DNA of 64,000 nt, taken from assembly GCA_013112545.1 (NCBI GenBank), contig JABFGJ010000002.1, positions 62,001 to 126,000 on the forward strand, in the 5' to 3' direction. The first letter of the stretch is position 1, and every line of letters starts with the position of its first letter. This stretch comes from Bacteroidota bacterium. Lineage in GTDB: Bacteria; Bacteroidota; Bacteroidia; Flavobacteriales_E; Vicingaceae. Below, piece by piece: positions 13,266-53,959 of the stretch. Under the pieces are notes generated by a model. That model made no database searches, was not told where the DNA came from, and saw only the letters and a list, made by a program, of their open reading frames with translations. The position numbers and the translations under genes were made by a program.

Positions 13266-13673
13266 ATGAGACTACTAATTCTGACATTTTTAACCTTTAC
13301 CACTTTTAACACATTTGCTTGTAAATGTATAGAGACGAAATTCCAGGAAGGATTTTCAAACTCTGACATAGTCTTTGTTGGTCAAGTGGTTAGTATTAAA
13401 GATTATAAAGAGAGTTGTCAAGATGATAACTGCACAGACTATCTAGTTGTTTTCAAAATAACTAAAACTTTTAAAGGTAAAAGTGATAATGTAAAAATTC
13501 ACACTTTCAAAGATTCGGGCGGTTGTGGATATCCTTTTAAATCAAATCTGGAATATCTAATTTATGCTAACAGTTCAGGTGAATATTCTTACAGAGTTGG
13601 ACTTTGTTCCAGAACTTCAAAGCTAGAGTCAGAAAATGCACAATCTGATATTAAAAAAATTGAGAAAAGATAA
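13266..13673 (+). CDS. Small secreted TIMP/netrin (NTR)-like protein
   Basis: A 135-residue protein with a signal peptide ending TFA, so the mature protein begins CKC, as in tissue-inhibitor-of-metalloproteinase-like and other NTR-fold proteins. Six further cysteines are spread through the chain (C at about 51, 56, 80, 82 and near the end in VGLCSRTS), and the pattern DIVFVGQVVSIK and LEYLIYANSSGEYS fits the OB-like barrel of the family. Bacterial members are extracytoplasmic and mostly uncharacterised. The 3' end overlaps the next gene by 38 nt in another frame. It has no clear partner in a pathway here. Confidence 0.7.
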   Translation: MRLLILTFLTFTTFNTFACKCIETKFQEGFSNSDIVFVGQVVSIKDYKESCQDDNCTDYLVVFKITKTFKGKSDNVKIHTFKDSGGCGYPFKSNLEYLIYANSSGEYSYRVGLCSRTSKLESENAQSDIKKIEKR

Positions 13674-17797: not shown

Positions 17798-18400
17798 TTA
17801 AGAACGAGCAAATGCGATCAAGTTGGCATAGTCACCATGGTCGGCTTTTTTTAGCGCGATCAGATAGTTTTTTCTTGCATCACTTTCATTCGATAAATTC
17901 GAATCGGATTGGCCCCAAGTAAAAATTCTTCGCTTGAATACCTTTTCGGCTATTAGATCTCCCATTAATCTGCTATGTCTTCCATTCCCATTCGAAAAAC
18001 AATGAATACTTACAATGCGGTGCTTAAAACGAATTGCAATTTCATCTTCCGAAAAGGAATTATTTTCAATCCAAAATTTCGCATCATCTATCAAGGCTCT
18101 TAATTGGATTGGAATCATCCAACTTTCGACTCCAATGTTTTTTTCAGTTTTACGAAATTCACCTGCCCATTTCCATACTTCATTATACATTCGTTTGTGT
18201 AATGACTTTATAAAAGTCTCTGACAATAATTTATTTATTGGCATTTTTCTTCCAATAGTCCATTGTACAGCTTTTTCAATGTTGTTTTGCTCAAATTCAT
18301 CCAGTTCAGCATTGGTGGTAATTGTTGCTATTTTTAGACCCTCTTTTTCTTCTTCCTCTAGTGGAGTCTGTCCTTGTAAATAATCAAGATTTAATCCCAT
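17798..18400 (-). CDS. Mobile mystery protein B, Fic/Doc-domain
   Basis: A 200-residue protein whose central Fic domain has HCFSNGNGRHSRL, a version of the HxFxxGNGRxxR active site with the histidine and the GNGR phosphate loop kept, so AMP or other nucleotide transfer to a target is possible. The N-terminal part has LNELDEFEQNNI-type features typical of the 'mobile mystery protein B' family. Its start overlaps the end of the XRE gene upstream (18391-18400), the usual A-B arrangement. The pair is proposed to behave like a toxin-antitoxin module and travels between genomes. Substrate unknown. Confidence 0.86.
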   Translation of the reverse strand: MGLNLDYLQGQTPLEEEEKEGLKIATITTNAELDEFEQNNIEKAVQWTIGRKMPINKLLSETFIKSLHKRMYNEVWKWAGEFRKTEKNIGVESWMIPIQLRALIDDAKFWIENNSFSEDEIAIRFKHRIVSIHCFSNGNGRHSRLMGDLIAEKVFKRRIFTWGQSDSNLSNESDARKNYLIALKKADHGDYANLIAFARS

Positions 18401-18849
18401 AGTATTTTTGGCATTTTTTCAATTATGTCTTTGGTTCTAGCATTTATCGCCTTTTTAATCCTTTCCGGAGAATTTTCTTGGTCTTCCAATTTCATTGTAT
18501 TAGAAGTGCGTAATACAATTTCGGTTGCAAGTTTTTTTGCTTTCTTTTCTATTAGGTTTTCTATATTTCCATCGATAGGTATAAAGCCGTATATCAATTT
18601 CATGTCCATTGCTTTTCCTGCTTCTTCTAAAGCTTTAATCGTAATAGCTCCTTTTGCTTCTCTTTTTTCTAAACTTTGTGCGCTTTGCTTAGTTATGCCT
18701 AGCTTGTTGCCAAGTTGCTCTAGCGACATCCCTATGGATGTCCGAATAGTTTTAATCCATCCTATAGCTGGACTTGTTTCTTTACTAGCTAGTTTATAAG
18801 GCTTTAATTTTTTGTTTAGTTGTTCTATTTGGAGTTTACTTGTTTTCAT
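18391..18849 (-). CDS. Mobile mystery protein A, XRE-type DNA-binding
   Basis: About 152 residues from the ATG at 18849 (MKTSKLQIEQLNKKL). The upstream ATG at 18882 would overlap a -7 promoter element at 18880-18887, so the shorter form is preferred. The middle carries an XRE helix-turn-helix (IGMSLEQLGNKLGITKQSAQSLEKRE) at about residues 40-65. The invariant partner gene B (Fic) follows with a 10-nt overlap. It probably represses the operon and may neutralise protein B, by analogy with antitoxins. Nothing else mobile, such as an integrase or transposase, is visible nearby. Confidence 0.85.
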   Translation of the reverse strand: MKTSKLQIEQLNKKLKPYKLASKETSPAIGWIKTIRTSIGMSLEQLGNKLGITKQSAQSLEKREAKGAITIKALEEAGKAMDMKLIYGFIPIDGNIENLIEKKAKKLATEIVLRTSNTMKLEDQENSPERIKKAINARTKDIIEKMPKILWD

Positions 18850-18879
18850 TTGTAAGCTTATATTAAGACTAATGTTTAT

Positions 18880-18887
18880 CAAATGTA
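18880..18887 (-). promoter_or_regulatory. Candidate -7 element for the mobile mystery operon
   Basis: CAAATGTA on the plus strand is TACATTTG on the minus strand, matching TAnnTTTG. It lies 31 nt upstream of the ATG at 18849 and supports that start over the one at 18882. A TTTTG lies further upstream but at a shorter than usual spacing. Confidence 0.4.
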
Positions 18888-34059: not shown

Positions 34060-34428
34060 TACCAATTAAGGATAAAAAATAAACCAAACTTGTCCACTTT
34101 TTACTGAATTGCTAACTTGCTCATTATTAATTTATATTGCTAAACTATAATGCAAGTATCGACTATTTAGCTCAGTCAAACATTTAAGTTGAGTAACTAG
34201 TGATTTTCCTAGGGCAATAAACTTTTTTCACGATTTTGATAACACTAAACTATTTTTTTTAATATTGTTTGTCCTTAAAATATCTTTGAGCTTTTTATGA
34301 CACTATAAGGCTTATAAATGTATAGCTTAGAGCTTCATGTTTTCATAGAAAACTCAGTTAAATAAAAAAATGTATAATTTTAATCATTACACAACAGCAT
34401 AATTTTTTAAAACAAGAGACTTCAAAAA
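34060..34428. other. 369-nt AT-rich gap upstream of the cytochrome/YceI/DUF5777 cassette
   Basis: No frame or RNA gene is recognisable. It contains a TATCTTTG at 34281-34288 that fits the -7 consensus, with a TTTG only 9 nt upstream, which is too close. The promoter of the following five-gene set must lie here. The gap is markedly long for this window. Confidence 0.5.
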
Positions 34429-34830
34429 ATGTCAAAAAAAATAATTGCAGCCATAATTATTATACTAGTCATAATTGTAGGGCTTTATCAATATAATAGG
34501 AAGGTGCCTAGTCTAGAGTCAATAAATGCTGATTATTCTCTAAGTTCAAACGAATTGTATGATGCATTTGAAAATGATGAGAAACAAGCATTGACTTTAT
34601 ATGAAAATAAAGTTATTGATGTAAGTGGAAAGGTTCTAAGCATTAAAGAGGAAGGTGGTACAAGTGTTATAGTAATTGAGTCAGAAAATGCTATGATAGG
34701 AGGAATAAATTGTTCATTCAATGAAAAAATTAATAACATTCAAGAAGGTCAAGTCTTAACTATTCGAGGACGCTGCCAAGGATTTTTAATGGATGTAATA
34801 TTAAATAACTGCATCATTATTAATGAATAA
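34429..34830 (+). CDS. Membrane-anchored OB-fold (tRNA_anti-like) protein
   Basis: A 133-residue protein: one N-terminal helix (IIAAIIIILVIIVGLYQY), a short linker, then an OB-fold of the tRNA_anti-like family. That family is marked by SSNELYDAFENDEKQALTLYENKVIDVSGKV and GQVLTIRGRCQGFLMDVILNNC near the end. Such domains occur in exported bacterial proteins with unknown ligand. It is the first gene of a five-gene set and overlaps the next by 8 nt. The charge pattern of the leader suggests the domain lies outside the cytoplasm. Confidence 0.8.
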   Translation: MSKKIIAAIIIILVIIVGLYQYNRKVPSLESINADYSLSSNELYDAFENDEKQALTLYENKVIDVSGKVLSIKEEGGTSVIVIESENAMIGGINCSFNEKINNIQEGQVLTIRGRCQGFLMDVILNNCIIINE

Positions 34831-35170
34831 ATTAGTTAGTTTATTAATCGTGATAAGTCTAAGTGCCTGCTATTACGATAACGAAGAGGAATTATATCCA
34901 AACCTTGATTGCACGACTAAAACCATAAGTTTTTCTTCAGATATTAGTCCAATTATAAACACTAAATGTGCAACAACAGGTTGCCATGTTCAAGGAGGTT
35001 CAGGATCTGGAATCTTTGAAAATTACAATCAAATTAAAGCAAAAGTGGATAATGGCTCATTTAGAAATAGAGTGATTATACAGAAAGATATGCCACCTTC
35101 TAGTTCGCTTACTAATTGTCAAATTACTTATATAGAACAATGGATAAACAATGGAGCACCAAATAATTAA
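34823..35170 (+). CDS. Cytochrome c-like lipoprotein, single module with CX4CH site
   Basis: A 115-residue lipoprotein (signal ending ISLSAC, lipid at C16). The one module has a heme-type site C49-x4-C54-H55 (KCATTGCH) instead of CxxCH, a later Met-Pro-Pro (M90) that could be the distal ligand, and the closing block YIEQWINNGAPNN. The same layout appears twice in the protein at 36620-37336. I read it as a c-type cytochrome domain of the kind found in Bacteroidota and Planctomycetes exported proteins; heme attachment at CX4CH needs proof. It overlaps the OB-fold gene by 8 nt and is 9 nt from the YceI gene. Confidence 0.78.
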   Translation: MNKLVSLLIVISLSACYYDNEEELYPNLDCTTKTISFSSDISPIINTKCATTGCHVQGGSGSGIFENYNQIKAKVDNGSFRNRVIIQKDMPPSSSLTNCQITYIEQWINNGAPNN

Positions 35171-35179
35171 AAACAAATT

Positions 35180-35731
35180 ATGAAAAAAATAGTAATACTT
35201 GCAGGAATATTAATAGGAACAGTTAATGCTTTTGGTCAAAAATATTTAACCCAAAATGGGACAATAAATTTTTATTCTGAGACGCCTTTAGAAAATATTG
35301 AGTCTGTTAACAATCAAGTTTCTTCAGTGTTAGACACAGAAAATGGAAACATTGTATTCTCATTATTGATTAAAGCATTCTCTTTTGAGAAAGCCTTAAT
35401 GCAAGAACACTTCAATGAAAAATATCTAGAAAGCGAAAAATATCCTAAATCAACTTTCAAAGGCTCTATTCTAGATTACTCTACTTATGAGTTATCTAAT
35501 GAGCCAACTAAAGTGAAAATAAAAGGGCAACTAACTATTCATGGTGTGACAAAAGAAATAGAAGTGAATGGTAGTCTAACAAAGACCTCTGATAGTAAAA
35601 TAAAAGGGGAATCAGAATTTTTAGTTTTATTAGATGATTATAATATCAAGGTTCCATCAGCAGTGTCGGGTAATATTGCTAAGGAAATAAAAATAAAGGC
35701 CATCATGAATTATGAAAAATTTGAAAAGTAG
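35180..35731 (+). CDS. YceI family protein
   Basis: A 183-residue protein with a signal peptide (cut near AFGQ) and a YceI lipocalin-like barrel. The conserved features are NGTINFYSETPLENIE, FNEKYLESEKYPKSTFKG and GQLTIHGVTKEIEVNG. Characterised members bind polyisoprenoids such as quinone-like or isoprenoid chains in the periplasm. Here it is flanked by cytochrome-like lipoproteins and a DUF5777 barrel, which fits a carrier for a lipid cofactor. It overlaps the next gene by 20 nt. Confidence 0.92.
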   Translation: MKKIVILAGILIGTVNAFGQKYLTQNGTINFYSETPLENIESVNNQVSSVLDTENGNIVFSLLIKAFSFEKALMQEHFNEKYLESEKYPKSTFKGSILDYSTYELSNEPTKVKIKGQLTIHGVTKEIEVNGSLTKTSDSKIKGESEFLVLLDDYNIKVPSAVSGNIAKEIKIKAIMNYEKFEK

Positions 35732-36623
35732 AAGTTTCCTTTTTCTCTTTTTTACTCTCTTTTCATTGTCTATTTATGGGCAAGACGACCTAATGGCACT
35801 TTTAAATGAAAAAGAAGAACCTACAATTAATTATACCATTGCAACATTTAAAAGCACTAGATTAATAAGTGGGCATAGTGTAGAAACAAATTCAAAAGGC
35901 GTACTACAGTTTTTAATTGGTCACCGATTTGGACGAATAAATTCAGGTTGGAAAGATTTATACGGTGTTGATAATGCAACAATTAGGCTTGGATTCGAGT
36001 ATGGGTTAACAGATAATATAAATATAGGTATTGGTAGATCTGGATTTGAAAAGACATTTGATGGAACATTAAAATGGAAACTCATAAGGCAGCAATCAGG
36101 AGCAAAAAGTTTTCCCTTTACATCAACCTTTGTTAGTAGTATTTATATGAACACGATGGATTGGCCTTATCCTGAACGGGAAAATTATTTTTCTTCTCGA
36201 ATAAATTATCATCATGCACTTTTAATTGCTCGCAAATTTGATGATGTCATATCATTTCAATTGATGCCAACTCTTGTTCATCGCAACTTAGTTCAATCCT
36301 CTAAAGATGAAAATACAATTTATTCAATTGGCTTAGGCTCATCTTTAAAATTAAGCGGATCATTAAGGTTTAACATGGAATATTATTATATTCCAGAAGG
36401 TCAAATCTTTAGTACATTAGGTGGTGAAAAGGTTAGAAATTCGCTTTCAGTAGGTGTAGATTTAGAAACTGGAGGGCATGTTTTTCAGTTGTTTCTAACT
36501 AACAGTAGGGGTATGGCTGAGAAGTTTTTAATTGGAGGGACTTCAGGAAATTGGTTAGATGGTGATATACATTTTGGGTTTAATGTTAGTCGTGTTTTTA
36601 CACTGAAAAAGCCAAAAAAATGA
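35712..36623 (+). CDS. DUF5777 outer-membrane beta-barrel protein
   Basis: A 303-residue protein with a signal peptide (cut near IYGQ) and many alternating strands ending on an aromatic-rich barrel. Family markers are DDLMALLNEKEE right after the signal, TFKSTRLISGHSVET, and LQFLIGHRFGRINSGWKDLYGVDNATIRLGFEYGLT. DUF5777 is a Bacteroidota family of predicted outer-membrane barrels, often next to YceI and cytochrome-like genes. It starts inside the YceI gene (20-nt overlap) and ends on an ATGA overlap with the last gene of the set. Function unknown. Confidence 0.88.
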   Translation: MKNLKSRSFLFLFFTLFSLSIYGQDDLMALLNEKEEPTINYTIATFKSTRLISGHSVETNSKGVLQFLIGHRFGRINSGWKDLYGVDNATIRLGFEYGLTDNINIGIGRSGFEKTFDGTLKWKLIRQQSGAKSFPFTSTFVSSIYMNTMDWPYPERENYFSSRINYHHALLIARKFDDVISFQLMPTLVHRNLVQSSKDENTIYSIGLGSSLKLSGSLRFNMEYYYIPEGQIFSTLGGEKVRNSLSVGVDLETGGHVFQLFLTNSRGMAEKFLIGGTSGNWLDGDIHFGFNVSRVFTLKKPKK

Positions 36624-37336
36624 AAAGAGTAGAATATTTAATATTATTTGTCATTTGTTTTTCAATAATGTTCATTTCTTGTGAGCACGAGCCCATAGCT
36701 CCTTTACCTTCGAATTCTGCGATTAAGAATAATGAGGGTAACTCTAATGAAGATCCTTGTGATTCTGATACTGCATATTTTGTGAATGACATTTTCCCTA
36801 TTATAAGTTCAAATTGTGCTTTTAGCGGATGCCATGGAAATGGGAGCAGTCGAGATGGGGTAGAATTAAGTACATATAATTCTATTATTACTACTGCCGA
36901 TGTAAGGCCATTTGATTTAAGTGGTTCTGATTTATATAAAGTTATAACTGAAAGTGACCCAAATAAGAGAATGCCAAGGCCTCCTGCAAATCAATTAAGT
37001 CAAACACAGATTTCACTTATTGCAAAATGGATTAACCAAGGGGCAAAAAATAATTCATGCAGCCAATGTGATACCACTAATGTTACTTTTACACTATCGG
37101 TATCACCAATAATTAAAAGCAATTGTCAAGGGTGTCACAACGGAGTAAATCCTGGTGGAGGTATCGTTCTTACAAACTATACGGAAATTAAAAATCAAGT
37201 AGTTTCAGGTAAACTAGATGGTGCAGTTAACCATAGACCTGGTTTTATACCAATGCCTTATAATCAACCCAAGCTTAATGATTGCAACTTGTTTAAAATA
37301 AACAAATGGATTAATGAAGGAGCACTTAATAATTGA
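36620..37336 (+). CDS. Cytochrome c-like lipoprotein with two modules
   Basis: A 238-residue lipoprotein (signal ending IMFISC, lipid at C21) built of two similar modules of about 90 residues. The first has C66-x4-C71-H72 (NCAFSGCH), a later KRMPRPP (M118) and WINQGAKNN. The second has a standard C169-x2-C172-H173 (NCQGCH), PMPYNQP (M212) and WINEGALNN. Between them is a CSQC pair (147-150). The repeat layout equals the single module at 34823-35170. It is the last gene of the set, starting by ATGA overlap with the DUF5777 gene. Probably an outer-surface or periplasmic electron-transfer lipoprotein. Confidence 0.8.
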   Translation: MKRVEYLILFVICFSIMFISCEHEPIAPLPSNSAIKNNEGNSNEDPCDSDTAYFVNDIFPIISSNCAFSGCHGNGSSRDGVELSTYNSIITTADVRPFDLSGSDLYKVITESDPNKRMPRPPANQLSQTQISLIAKWINQGAKNNSCSQCDTTNVTFTLSVSPIIKSNCQGCHNGVNPGGGIVLTNYTEIKNQVVSGKLDGAVNHRPGFIPMPYNQPKLNDCNLFKINKWINEGALNN

Positions 37337-40950: not shown

Positions 40951-41253
40951 TTAATCTTTTCTTTTAGTCCAGTTGGTAGGATTAAGCGAAGTATGAAAAA
41001 CGGCTCTAACTGATACAATTATTTTAGGTTCATCAATAGTAAAATGAATCATAAATGGGAACTTTTTAAGCGGAAGGCAATGAACAGTATCGTAACGGAT
41101 TTCAAAATTTGGGTGTTTAGTTAAGCTATCAATATGGGTAGGCACAGCGTTATGAAACTTTTTGCCAAGTCCTTTTTGCTGTTTATTGTACCACGTAATG
41201 GCTTCTTGAATATCTAAATGAGCATCAGGCTCAATTTTAACTTTAAAAGCCAT
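40951..41253 (-). CDS. RelE/ParE-family toxin
   Basis: A 100-residue RelE/ParE-fold protein: a conserved AHLDIQEAITWYNKQQKGLGKKF start, the RYDTVHCLPLKKFPFMIHF centre, and a closing strand KIIVSVRAVFHTS with the arginine needed in the active site region. Such toxins cleave mRNA at the ribosome or poison gyrase. The upstream 68-residue gene ends exactly at its first base, a standard antitoxin-toxin overlap. The 3' end is 58 nt from the left repeat cluster. Confidence 0.9.
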   Translation of the reverse strand: MAFKVKIEPDAHLDIQEAITWYNKQQKGLGKKFHNAVPTHIDSLTKHPNFEIRYDTVHCLPLKKFPFMIHFTIDEPKIIVSVRAVFHTSLNPTNWTKRKD

Positions 41254-41459
41254 TAATCCAGTTTAAAGTCGTTTTTTACCTCATCCCAATCGAGCAGTCT
41301 TTCAGGGTTTTTATTAGAATCAGCAATACGCTGTCTAACAATTTTTTTATGCTCTTCAGGAATAGAAACATCAGCAGCTTTAACGAAGCCCAAATTTTTA
41401 ACTAGTTCCATGAAGAACTGGAACTTATTCTCGGGAATATTTAAAATAACTTGTTTCAT
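41253..41459 (-). CDS. Antitoxin of the RelE/ParE pair
   Basis: A 68-residue acidic/basic protein starting MKQVILNIPENKFQFFMELV and ending LLDWDEVKNDFKLD, the shape of small antitoxins that pair with this toxin group (short DNA-binding strand first, then a helix that wraps the toxin). Its last base is the first base of the toxin gene. It is 4 nt downstream of an XRE regulator gene. Confidence 0.85.
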   Translation of the reverse strand: MKQVILNIPENKFQFFMELVKNLGFVKAADVSIPEEHKKIVRQRIADSNKNPERLLDWDEVKNDFKLD

Positions 41460-52079: not shown

Positions 52080-52751
52080 TTAATTGGTTATAAACTTTGT
52101 GATAGTCGCTTGACCTTTTGGATTAATGATTTTTAAAAAATAAAAACCTTTAGCAGGACTAGAAAATGGGATTTGCTGTTGTTTGTTAAGATTTAAGGTT
52201 TGATCTAATAATGCTTTACCTGTTAAGTCATAAACAATTGCTCTTCCTCTAAAGTCTTGGTTTAGTTGAAAATGCAAGCTTGAGTTGGCATAATACACTT
52301 TAGAAACATTCAATTTAATCTCATCTACACTAACTTTAAAAGAAACGCAGGCGCCAGGATGTTTTGTTGAATTATCTGGATAATCATCAGTTCGCTCTGC
52401 GGTAACGCAAATGACATAAGAGTTCTCCCATTTAAAAGAATAGCTAGGCATAATTACATAGTCATTTCTTTCGCCAACCCGGGTAGTTATCCCTACTTGC
52501 TTTCTAACGGTGTAATATTCAGTTGAATCTCCCGCACCAATGCTAACAGAAAACGTAATGGTATCTTGAGCAAATAATATATGTGGCCCATCGTTTTGCA
52601 CACGTACTTCAATAGGCTCAGTAGCATTGTTGTTGTAATTAAATCCCGCAGTTGGGTTAATGATATTTCGAACGCCAATTCCATTTTGATTCTGTGCTTG
52701 CAAAACAAAACAAGTACTAAGCAGTATTGTGAAGATTAAAATTCTTTTCAT
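52080..52751 (-). CDS. Secreted protein with T9SS type A sorting domain
   Basis: A 223-residue protein with a signal peptide (cut after VLQA). The passenger of about 130 residues has a beta-rich pattern (ATEPIEVRVQNDGPHILF, SYVICVTAERTDDYPDN) resembling an Ig-like or CARDB domain. The final 70 residues form the sorting domain (VYYANSSLHFQLNQ to KGFYFLKIINPKGQATITKFITN). It would be exported by the type IX system. It converges with the M1 gene, with 7 nt between the ends. Confidence 0.82.
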   Translation of the reverse strand: MKRILIFTILLSTCFVLQAQNQNGIGVRNIINPTAGFNYNNNATEPIEVRVQNDGPHILFAQDTITFSVSIGAGDSTEYYTVRKQVGITTRVGERNDYVIMPSYSFKWENSYVICVTAERTDDYPDNSTKHPGACVSFKVSVDEIKLNVSKVYYANSSLHFQLNQDFRGRAIVYDLTGKALLDQTLNLNKQQQIPFSSPAKGFYFLKIINPKGQATITKFITN

Positions 52752-52761
52752 GAATTTAGTT

Positions 52762-52965
52762 TTAGATTATTGTAATAGTGGTTTCGTTTACTTGAATAAT
52801 ATCGCCTTTTCTTACTTTCAATCGCTTTCGAGTATCTATATTTCCATTATATAATACTTCTTCATCTTCAACCATTTGTTTTGCCATGCCACCAGTATCT
52901 GCAAGGCCAACTAACTTTAATAGCTTTATTAATTCGATGTACTCAGAAGTAAGCTCAAATTCCAT
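52762..52965 (-). CDS. S4-domain RNA-binding protein
   Basis: A 67-residue protein that is one S4 domain of the YbcJ type: IELIKLLKLVGLADTGGMAKQMVEDEEVLYNG, then TRKRLKVRKGDII near the end. S4 domains bind RNA, most likely rRNA or tRNA. It is 10 nt upstream of the T9SS cargo gene on the same strand. Confidence 0.88.
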   Translation of the reverse strand: MEFELTSEYIELIKLLKLVGLADTGGMAKQMVEDEEVLYNGNIDTRKRLKVRKGDIIQVNETTITII

Positions 52966-53149
52966 TATACAAAAGTAGGAAACTAATTAAAAGATTTGGT
53001 GTGGTTTAATACGATTGCCAAGCATTGTATGTTGTCATTTACAATTGCTCATATATCAGAACAGTTACTAGAAACAGAAATCCTCGTTTTTCATTACGAT
53101 GTTTACTTTAATTCAAAACTACCTTCATATAAATTCGTTTATTTGATAC

Positions 53150-53959
53150 ATGAAGCATTGTATTTTCATTTTATTTCTATTTGTTTTTTCGAGTAGCTTT
53201 AGTCAGGCATGTTTGTTAGAAAACAAAAGCTTCAAAACTGGAGAGCGGGTGGACTATACCATCTACTATCATTTAGCAGGTATTTGGGTTGGTGCAGGTG
53301 ATGTTTATTTTACTGTGGATACGCTAAAAATAGGCAATGCAGCTTATTATCATCTTTATAGTTATGGGCAAACGTATAAGAAATACGACTGGATTTATAA
53401 AGTAAGGGATGTTTTTGAAAGTTATGTTAAGCAATCTGATCTGCAACCACTTCGATTTAAACGAGAAGTAAGGGAAGGTAGTACTTATATTAAAGAAGAC
53501 TATGTTTTTAAAGCGAAAACAAACGAGGTTATCACACTTAGGCAATTAGATAAAAAAGAACCGATGAAAAGAGACACGGTAAAATCTAAGCCATGCAGCT
53601 ATGATGTTTTAACCATGATTTACTATGCAAGAAACATGGATTTTTCGAACGTAAAAGTGGACGAGAAAGTACCAATACGAGTGTTTTTAGACAACCAATC
53701 ACATGATAGTTATATACGATATTTGGGAAAAGAAGAGTTGACCATAAAAGATTTAGGAACATTCCGCTGCATTAAAATAGCTCCTTTTTTAATAGATGGA
53801 ACTATTTTTAATGGCGGTGAAGACATGACAGTGTGGGTGACTGATGATAAAAATCGAGTGCCTTTACTTATAGAAACTCCAATATTAGTGGGTTCTATAA
53901 AAGCCAGAGTAAACAAGATGGAAGGATTACGGCATCCTCAAGATTCAAGAGTTAATTAA
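53150..53959 (+). CDS. DUF3108 family protein
   Basis: A 269-residue protein with a signal peptide (cut near SFSQ) and the DUF3108 domain: GERVDYTIYYHLAGIWVGAGDVYFTV early, KYDWIYKVRDVFESYV, and SYDVLTMIYYARNMDF in the centre. Members are exported, probably lipid- or sugar-linked beta-rich proteins of unknown job. It converges with the DUF493 gene (4-nt overlap). Confidence 0.85.
   Translation: MKHCIFILFLFVFSSSFSQACLLENKSFKTGERVDYTIYYHLAGIWVGAGDVYFTVDTLKIGNAAYYHLYSYGQTYKKYDWIYKVRDVFESYVKQSDLQPLRFKREVREGSTYIKEDYVFKAKTNEVITLRQLDKKEPMKRDTVKSKPCSYDVLTMIYYARNMDFSNVKVDEKVPIRVFLDNQSHDSYIRYLGKEELTIKDLGTFRCIKIAPFLIDGTIFNGGEDMTVWVTDDKNRVPLLIETPILVGSIKARVNKMEGLRHPQDSRVN

Follow-up and report, generated by a model that had tools for sequence, protein, structure and literature searches.

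A 64,000-nucleotide (nt) stretch of a Bacteroidota genome (Vicingaceae; contig JABFGJ010000002.1, positions 62,001 to 126,000), hereafter called the window, carries five adjacent genes for exported proteins: an OB-fold protein (OB), a lipoprotein with one putative cytochrome c module (C1), a YceI-family protein, a DUF5777 protein predicted to be an outer-membrane barrel, and a second lipoprotein with two such modules (C2). It is close to certain that these five genes are a real, conserved cassette. As to its function, we tentatively read it as an envelope redox system.

The preliminary description of this DNA had staked its reading on these families occurring together in other Bacteroidota, and this is what was found. 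The sample consisted of 120 DUF5777 neighbourhoods from whole genomes and 80 named loci, with 198 DUF5777 genes, all from Bacteroidota; open reading frames (ORFs) were called, and neighbour families were found by profile searches seeded with the window proteins. A directon was taken to be a series of same-strand genes with gaps <150 nt. A single-module cytochrome lipoprotein of the C1 type shares the directon of the DUF5777 gene in 142 of the 198 cases, a YceI protein in 136, a member of the OB family in 65 and a multi-motif cytochrome of the C2 type in 59. The window's type is over-represented in these figures, as the named loci were chosen by likeness to the window's barrel, and the counts are probably low, as the simple ORF caller let an opposite-strand ORF displace YceI or C1 at some loci. 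In the named genomes nearest the window's type, a cytochrome occurs within 4 genes of the barrel in 73 of 78 cases and YceI in 62 of 78. The best barrel match among the named loci is from Brumimicrobium (69% identity); others are from Salibacter, Pontibacter, Marivirga, Aquimarina, Fulvivirga, Rufibacter and many metagenome-assembled genomes of Saprospiraceae and Bacteroidales.

With O, c, Y, B and C denoting OB, C1, YceI, barrel and C2, the window's gene order is OcYBC, which was seen 4 times among the 198 DUF5777 genes. The most frequent core orders are cYB (32), bare B (21), YB (21), CcOYB (16), cOYB (12) and cB (12), and CcBYO is found among the further ones. Such rearrangement across many families points to selection on the set and not to an inherited order. 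An adjacency by chance, or one merely inherited and without joint function, might be expected from families that are common in Bacteroidota. However, the set is kept in many families in rearranged orders, the families with just one strong copy in the genome of origin have it at this locus, and the co-occurrence counts contradict this explanation, which we regard as extremely improbable. The genome of origin (3.27 Mb) has one DUF5777 gene and one strong OB-family gene, both in the cassette, and three strong cytochrome modules, all within the cassette; YceI genes number five.

DUF5777 is present in 153 of the 395 genomes sampled from the phylum. When 20 DUF5777-positive and 20 negative genomes were compared, the cytochrome module on a short frame (E at most 1e-18, frame <300 amino acids) was found in 18 of the former and 1 of the latter (Fisher p 6e-8), and members of the DUF5777-linked YceI subfamily (E ≤1e-40) in 19 and 7, respectively (p 1e-4); these p-values are indicative only, since thresholds were set after viewing the tables and the genomes were hand-picked and are phylogenetically non-independent.

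The preliminary description had noticed that both lipoproteins share one type of module, with a heme-like C..CH site, a later Met-Pro and a closing WINxGAxNN block. This module, with C..CH or C....CH, a following MP and WI..GA.NN at its end, is real and is conserved in both lipoprotein families. In an alignment of 80 single-module proteins (A3), C49, C54 and H55 of C1 are invariant, and M90, P91, W107 and a glycine after the motif are at least 90% conserved; in the two-module alignment (A6), M212 and P213 are invariant and M118 is conserved to at least 90%. Single-module proteins have either CX2CH or CX4CH at one and the same alignment column, so that CX4CH, too, most likely marks a heme site; this spacing is known from cytochrome c3 (PMC10454114). 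Among two-module homologues, CX4CH is followed by CX2CH in 55 of 55, these having been picked for carrying two motifs. An additional cysteine pair of the single-module proteins (both present in 40, neither in 46, mixed in 7) fits a disulfide, with relatedness inflating the count.

C1 alone has no Pfam match, and the single-sequence PDB search of C2 was uninformative, but alignment profiles gave matches: A3 to FoxE (1.4e-10) and cytochrome c6 (6e-8), and A6 to FoxE (PDB 5MAB, 2.4e-6). Cytochrome_CBB3 is matched by 42 of the 80 single-module members. The assignment of C1 and C2 as c-type cytochromes is thus supported at the profile level, and both the attachment motif (CX2CH in the second module of C2) and the distal methionine of class I c-type cytochromes can be found in the sequences. 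AlphaFold2 models C1 as a helical protein, with a mean predicted local distance difference test score (pLDDT) of 88.9. For heme attachment, a cytochrome c assembly protein (PF01578) is encoded in the own genome by an 806-amino-acid frame, as would be expected for a fused CcsBA.

The cassette YceI scores 55.7 bits with PF04264 (cut-off 23.7). Its single-sequence PDB search was uninformative and an alignment profile was needed; this profile (A2) matches BcnB (5e-13), E. coli YceI (1e-12) and solved YceI structures in general (5e-13 to 5e-5), which supports its assignment as a true family member. In a quick tree without bootstrap, the DUF5777-linked proteins lie apart from other YceI paralogues and form two groups, with L120 as a clear exception and two long-branch rows of unsure placement; some of the rows tagged as unlinked (L140, L149, L150, L157) do belong to the DUF5777 locus, at a distance of a few more genes. 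By this tree, the linked YceI is a dedicated subfamily. As a separate observation, the own genome codes outside the window (L004, genome contig C2:138822-142295) for a membrane H+-pyrophosphatase (PF03030 1.6e-177, over part of the sequence) with a C-terminal YceI domain (2.7e-17), and most related genomes have YceI matches inside open frames of about 900-940 amino acids, which suggests that this fusion is conserved.

Bacteroidota use menaquinone, and this quinone would therefore be the expected YceI ligand. Crystals of YceI proteins contain octaprenyl lipids or ubiquinone-8, and the YceI protein BcnA works with the cytochrome b561 LcoA and protects against lipid peroxidation (PMC9113575); in Cbp2D, YceI is joined to two c cytochromes (PMC8981238). 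Because of these properties of the family, a lipid-cofactor step for the cassette YceI can be proposed by analogy. The BcnA-LcoA pair, which guards against lipid peroxyl radicals (PMC9113575), also invites the thought that the cassette is its counterpart, an antioxidant unit in which a reduced isoprenoid or quinol borne by YceI quenches lipid peroxyl radicals of the outer membrane. The heme lipoproteins would then take the role of cytochrome b561 and return this lipid to its reduced form or oxidise it. Genes for extracytoplasmic function (ECF) sigma factors near DUF5777 (11 loci) would suit such an envelope-stress regulon, but this sigma factor is missing from most loci. Moreover, neither a cytochrome b561 nor an aldehyde reductase was conspicuous among the recurrent neighbour clusters (some of which were run against Pfam), and the potential of Met-ligated class I cytochromes c is often too high for easy quinone reduction. 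We think this function unlikely.

That the DUF5777 protein is an outer-membrane barrel had been a prediction and is now backed by a confident AlphaFold2 model with 12 long strands (93 homologues, mean pLDDT 93.8). It matches PF19089 with 302 bits over profile positions 1-247 of 247. A structure search with the model returned generic small barrels with a query TM-score <0.5, and no sequence relative was found in PDB. Q24, H71, F73, G85, H256, F258 and F290 are invariant in the family. Judged from hydrophobic alternation, strands 1, 11 and 12 would turn H71, F73, H256, F258 and F290 towards the lipid; by residue parity, these may form an exterior His/Phe patch, and conserved charged residues (R72, R92, D117, K121, K175, R211) have the parity of the lumen side.

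Such a patch could bind a redox cofactor or dock the lipoproteins, and the cassette might then be a split, minimal electron conduit of the outer membrane, where a surface-exposed C1 and a periplasmic C2 pass electrons at the barrel and YceI supplies menaquinol. Throughout its family, C1 has an acidic mature N-terminus (CYYDNEEELYP-like), unlike C2, and one more acidic than in other lipoproteins of the same loci (p 3e-28). It is similar, though not an exact match, to lipoprotein export signals of Bacteroidota (PMC5080379), which is only a suggestion that C1 is surface-exposed. We consider this arrangement improbable.

Genes near DUF5777 were also tallied in the sample, up to 6 genes from the barrel and thus not always in its operon, with one representative identified per cluster. 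A 340-amino-acid cytochrome with two CXXCH motifs is found at 12 loci, mostly directly after the barrel and replacing YceI. Plastocyanin-like cupredoxins occur at 11 loci and a Rieske lipoprotein at 7, and some DUF5777 genes have in their vicinity an NrfD/DsrP-like membrane protein, which is paired with a 4Fe-4S protein and accompanied by Crp-like regulators. These variant operons, in which YceI is swapped for a diheme cytochrome or redox proteins are added, point to electron transfer. The idea that the 340-amino-acid diheme partner is a TsdA-like enzyme was dropped, as a PDB search gave no match. DUF5777 loci of a second type (L116, L117) combine the NrfD/DsrP-like and 4Fe-4S proteins with small cytochromes c and Crp-like regulators in what looks like a quinone-linked redox cluster. 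Choice-of-anchor V proteins with a sorting tail of the type IX secretion system and a CxxCH in the N-terminal region (L116:6872-7696 and similar) occur near DUF5777 at 11 loci and are possibly secreted heme proteins.

The interchangeable redox partners (YceI, diheme cytochrome, Rieske protein, NrfD set) and the conserved charges on the lumen-parity side would also agree with a barrel that admits a small substrate, with the cytochromes wiring a reductase or oxidase, whose gene may be close by or at another place, and the exchangeable redox protein setting the chemistry. However, the five-gene type encodes no catalytic enzyme, and the likeness to small porins is generic, so that we consider a channel with an electron drain quite unlikely.

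OB matches PF12869 with 75 bits (cut-off 23.5) and has the family-typical cysteines in GxCxG...C; its best match in the PDB profile search is 3f1z (3e-4). A CcmE-like heme chaperone has a comparable anchored OB architecture, but OB has no CcmE match in the Pfam or PDB profile searches, and this candidate was rejected. As an anchored OB fold is a common binding scaffold and YceI proteins are lipid binders, the set could instead serve envelope assembly or lipid trafficking, YceI moving polyprenyl lipids and the cytochrome modules being redox sensors and not carriers. Yet the cytochrome modules are as constant as YceI or more so (142 versus 136 of 198) and are retained at many loci that have no YceI. 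We give this explanation little credence.

We therefore return to the envelope redox cassette as our preferred reading, which we find plausible though not quite probable: electrons would pass between outer-membrane heme lipoproteins and a lipoquinone bound to YceI, and these lipoproteins would have the barrel as their partner in the membrane. C1 (monoheme) and C2 (diheme) are predicted to be occupied by heme c and anchored at the outer membrane; the YceI pocket would hold menaquinone, or else a different polyprenyl lipid. The barrel with its 12 strands may provide a docking or channel site, possibly within a physical complex, and the anchored OB-fold protein could be an accessory factor. Reducing power or a redox lipid would be carried between periplasm and outer membrane, in either direction, and this may keep envelope lipids reduced or feed an electron acceptor at the outer membrane.

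Several results weigh against it. The YceI subfamily is kept in the 7 DUF5777-negative genomes mentioned above and some barrels occur without YceI (cB and cBC types), which shows that the link between the two is not a strict one. The C1 model had no significant match in Foldseek. A heme-copper oxidase gene is found in 153 of 153 DUF5777-positive and 225 of 242 negative genomes, a difference which is significant but makes a weak test, because nearly every genome has that gene.

The five ORFs and their tight packing were confirmed (Table 1), with spacings of -8, +9, -20 and -4 nt; all lie on the same strand, and this packing suggests that they share one transcript. Export signals, which had been assigned to all five products, were borne out upon reading the sequences: two lipoprotein signals (LSAC-YYDN in C1, FISC-EHEP in C2), Sec signals in YceI and the barrel, and in OB a hydrophobic N-terminal anchor that is apparently uncleaved. 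The gene before the leader gap is presumably a ribonuclease E/G, and the convergent gene 3′ of the cassette we take to be transporter-like.

Table 1. Positions in the window of the cassette genes, their predicted heme motifs and the upstream gap.
Feature	Position	Strand	Description
OB	34429..34830	+	133 aa; N-terminally anchored OB-fold protein, tRNA_anti-like family PF12869 (5.8e-21)
C1	34823..35170	+	115 aa; putative single-module c-type cytochrome lipoprotein, Met-Pro, WINNGAPNN end
C1 heme motif CATTGCH (CX4CH)	34967..34987	+	residues 49-55; predicted heme site
YceI	35180..35731	+	183 aa; PF04264 9.7e-15; lipocalin-like carrier family, DUF5777-linked subfamily
B, DUF5777 barrel	35712..36623	+	303 aa; PF19089 3.1e-90; 12-strand outer-membrane barrel (modelled)
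C2	36620..37336	+	238 aa; putative two-module diheme-type cytochrome lipoprotein; PF13442 and PF07635
C2 first heme motif CAFSGCH (CX4CH)	36815..36835	+	residues 66-72; C66, C71, H72 invariant (alignment A6)
C2 second heme motif CQGCH (CX2CH)	37124..37138	+	residues 169-173; C169, C172, H173 invariant (alignment A6)
Upstream gap (leader)	34060..34428	+	369 nt; no Rfam match; length varies in relatives

The leader, which the preliminary description had singled out as unusually long, did not hold up as a design feature. It is rather long, but comparable or larger gaps occur in the window (e.g. 52751-53150), and in relatives the gap before OB measures 18 (L067), 39 (L081), 60 (L069) or 141 nt (L213). 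A conserved leader or riboswitch was rejected, as the gap is not kept in relatives and an Rfam search to E 1 gave no match; promoter scans returned motif counts equal to the shuffled expectation. The earlier idea of an envelope redox or lipid-carrier system is supported in part, by the co-occurrence, the cytochrome profiles, the YceI family and the largely redox neighbours of variant loci.

Elsewhere in the window, a ParE-like toxin (weak match) and an addiction-module antitoxin form a pair that adjoins a helix-turn-helix gene (40951-41459), a Fic/DOC-family protein adjoins a helix-turn-helix regulator (17798-18882), and a small secreted protein (13266-13673) matches the TIMP family (9e-9), by its name unexpected in bacteria.

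Pairings of YceI with cytochromes are already known, but no description of the DUF5777-containing set was found in the open-access literature, where a full-text search over 5.39 million articles gave no mention of DUF5777 and no paper on the gene set was found. Orphan families (DUF5777, a dedicated subfamily of YceI and the lipoproteins of heme type) become one testable system. The outcome is a specific hypothesis on redox chemistry at the outer membrane of a large bacterial group, together with a record of CX4CH as a conserved motif of heme-type lipoproteins.

The cassette resembles several known systems in part. With BcnA-LcoA of Burkholderia cenocepacia (PMC9113575) it has in common a periplasmic YceI carrier that is genetically linked to an envelope heme protein, but its heme proteins are c-type lipoproteins, it has no cytochrome b561 gene, and it includes the DUF5777 barrel and the OB protein. 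Cbp2D of Cellvibrio japonicus (PMC8981238) likewise has a YceI/X158 module beside two cytochrome c modules; it is, however, one polypeptide that also contains a carbohydrate-binding module, whereas the cassette has separate genes, lipid-anchored cytochromes, a barrel and no pointer to polysaccharides. In the porin-cytochrome systems Cyc2, MtrAB and PioAB (PMC10654088), too, an outer-membrane barrel is associated with c-type heme, but the barrel has 26 strands in the MtrB type and 16 in the Cyc2 type, and the DUF5777 barrel is a separate polypeptide with 12 strands and no heme motif. The small channels NanC, Tsx, FapF, the COG4313 channel and OmpG resemble the AlphaFold2 model in a generic way (query TM-score <0.5 to all), and DUF5777 differs from them by the invariant His/Phe residues with exterior parity and by having no sequence match in PDB. 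FoxE, a diheme cytochrome (PDB 5MAB; PMC10654088), has CX2CH motifs and is an Fe(II) oxidase encoded in the foxEYZ operon, which has neither barrel nor YceI, whereas the cassette has no shown link to iron; it is nevertheless the best PDB profile match of the cassette modules, with which it would share the two-module build, the Met ligands and an extra disulfide.

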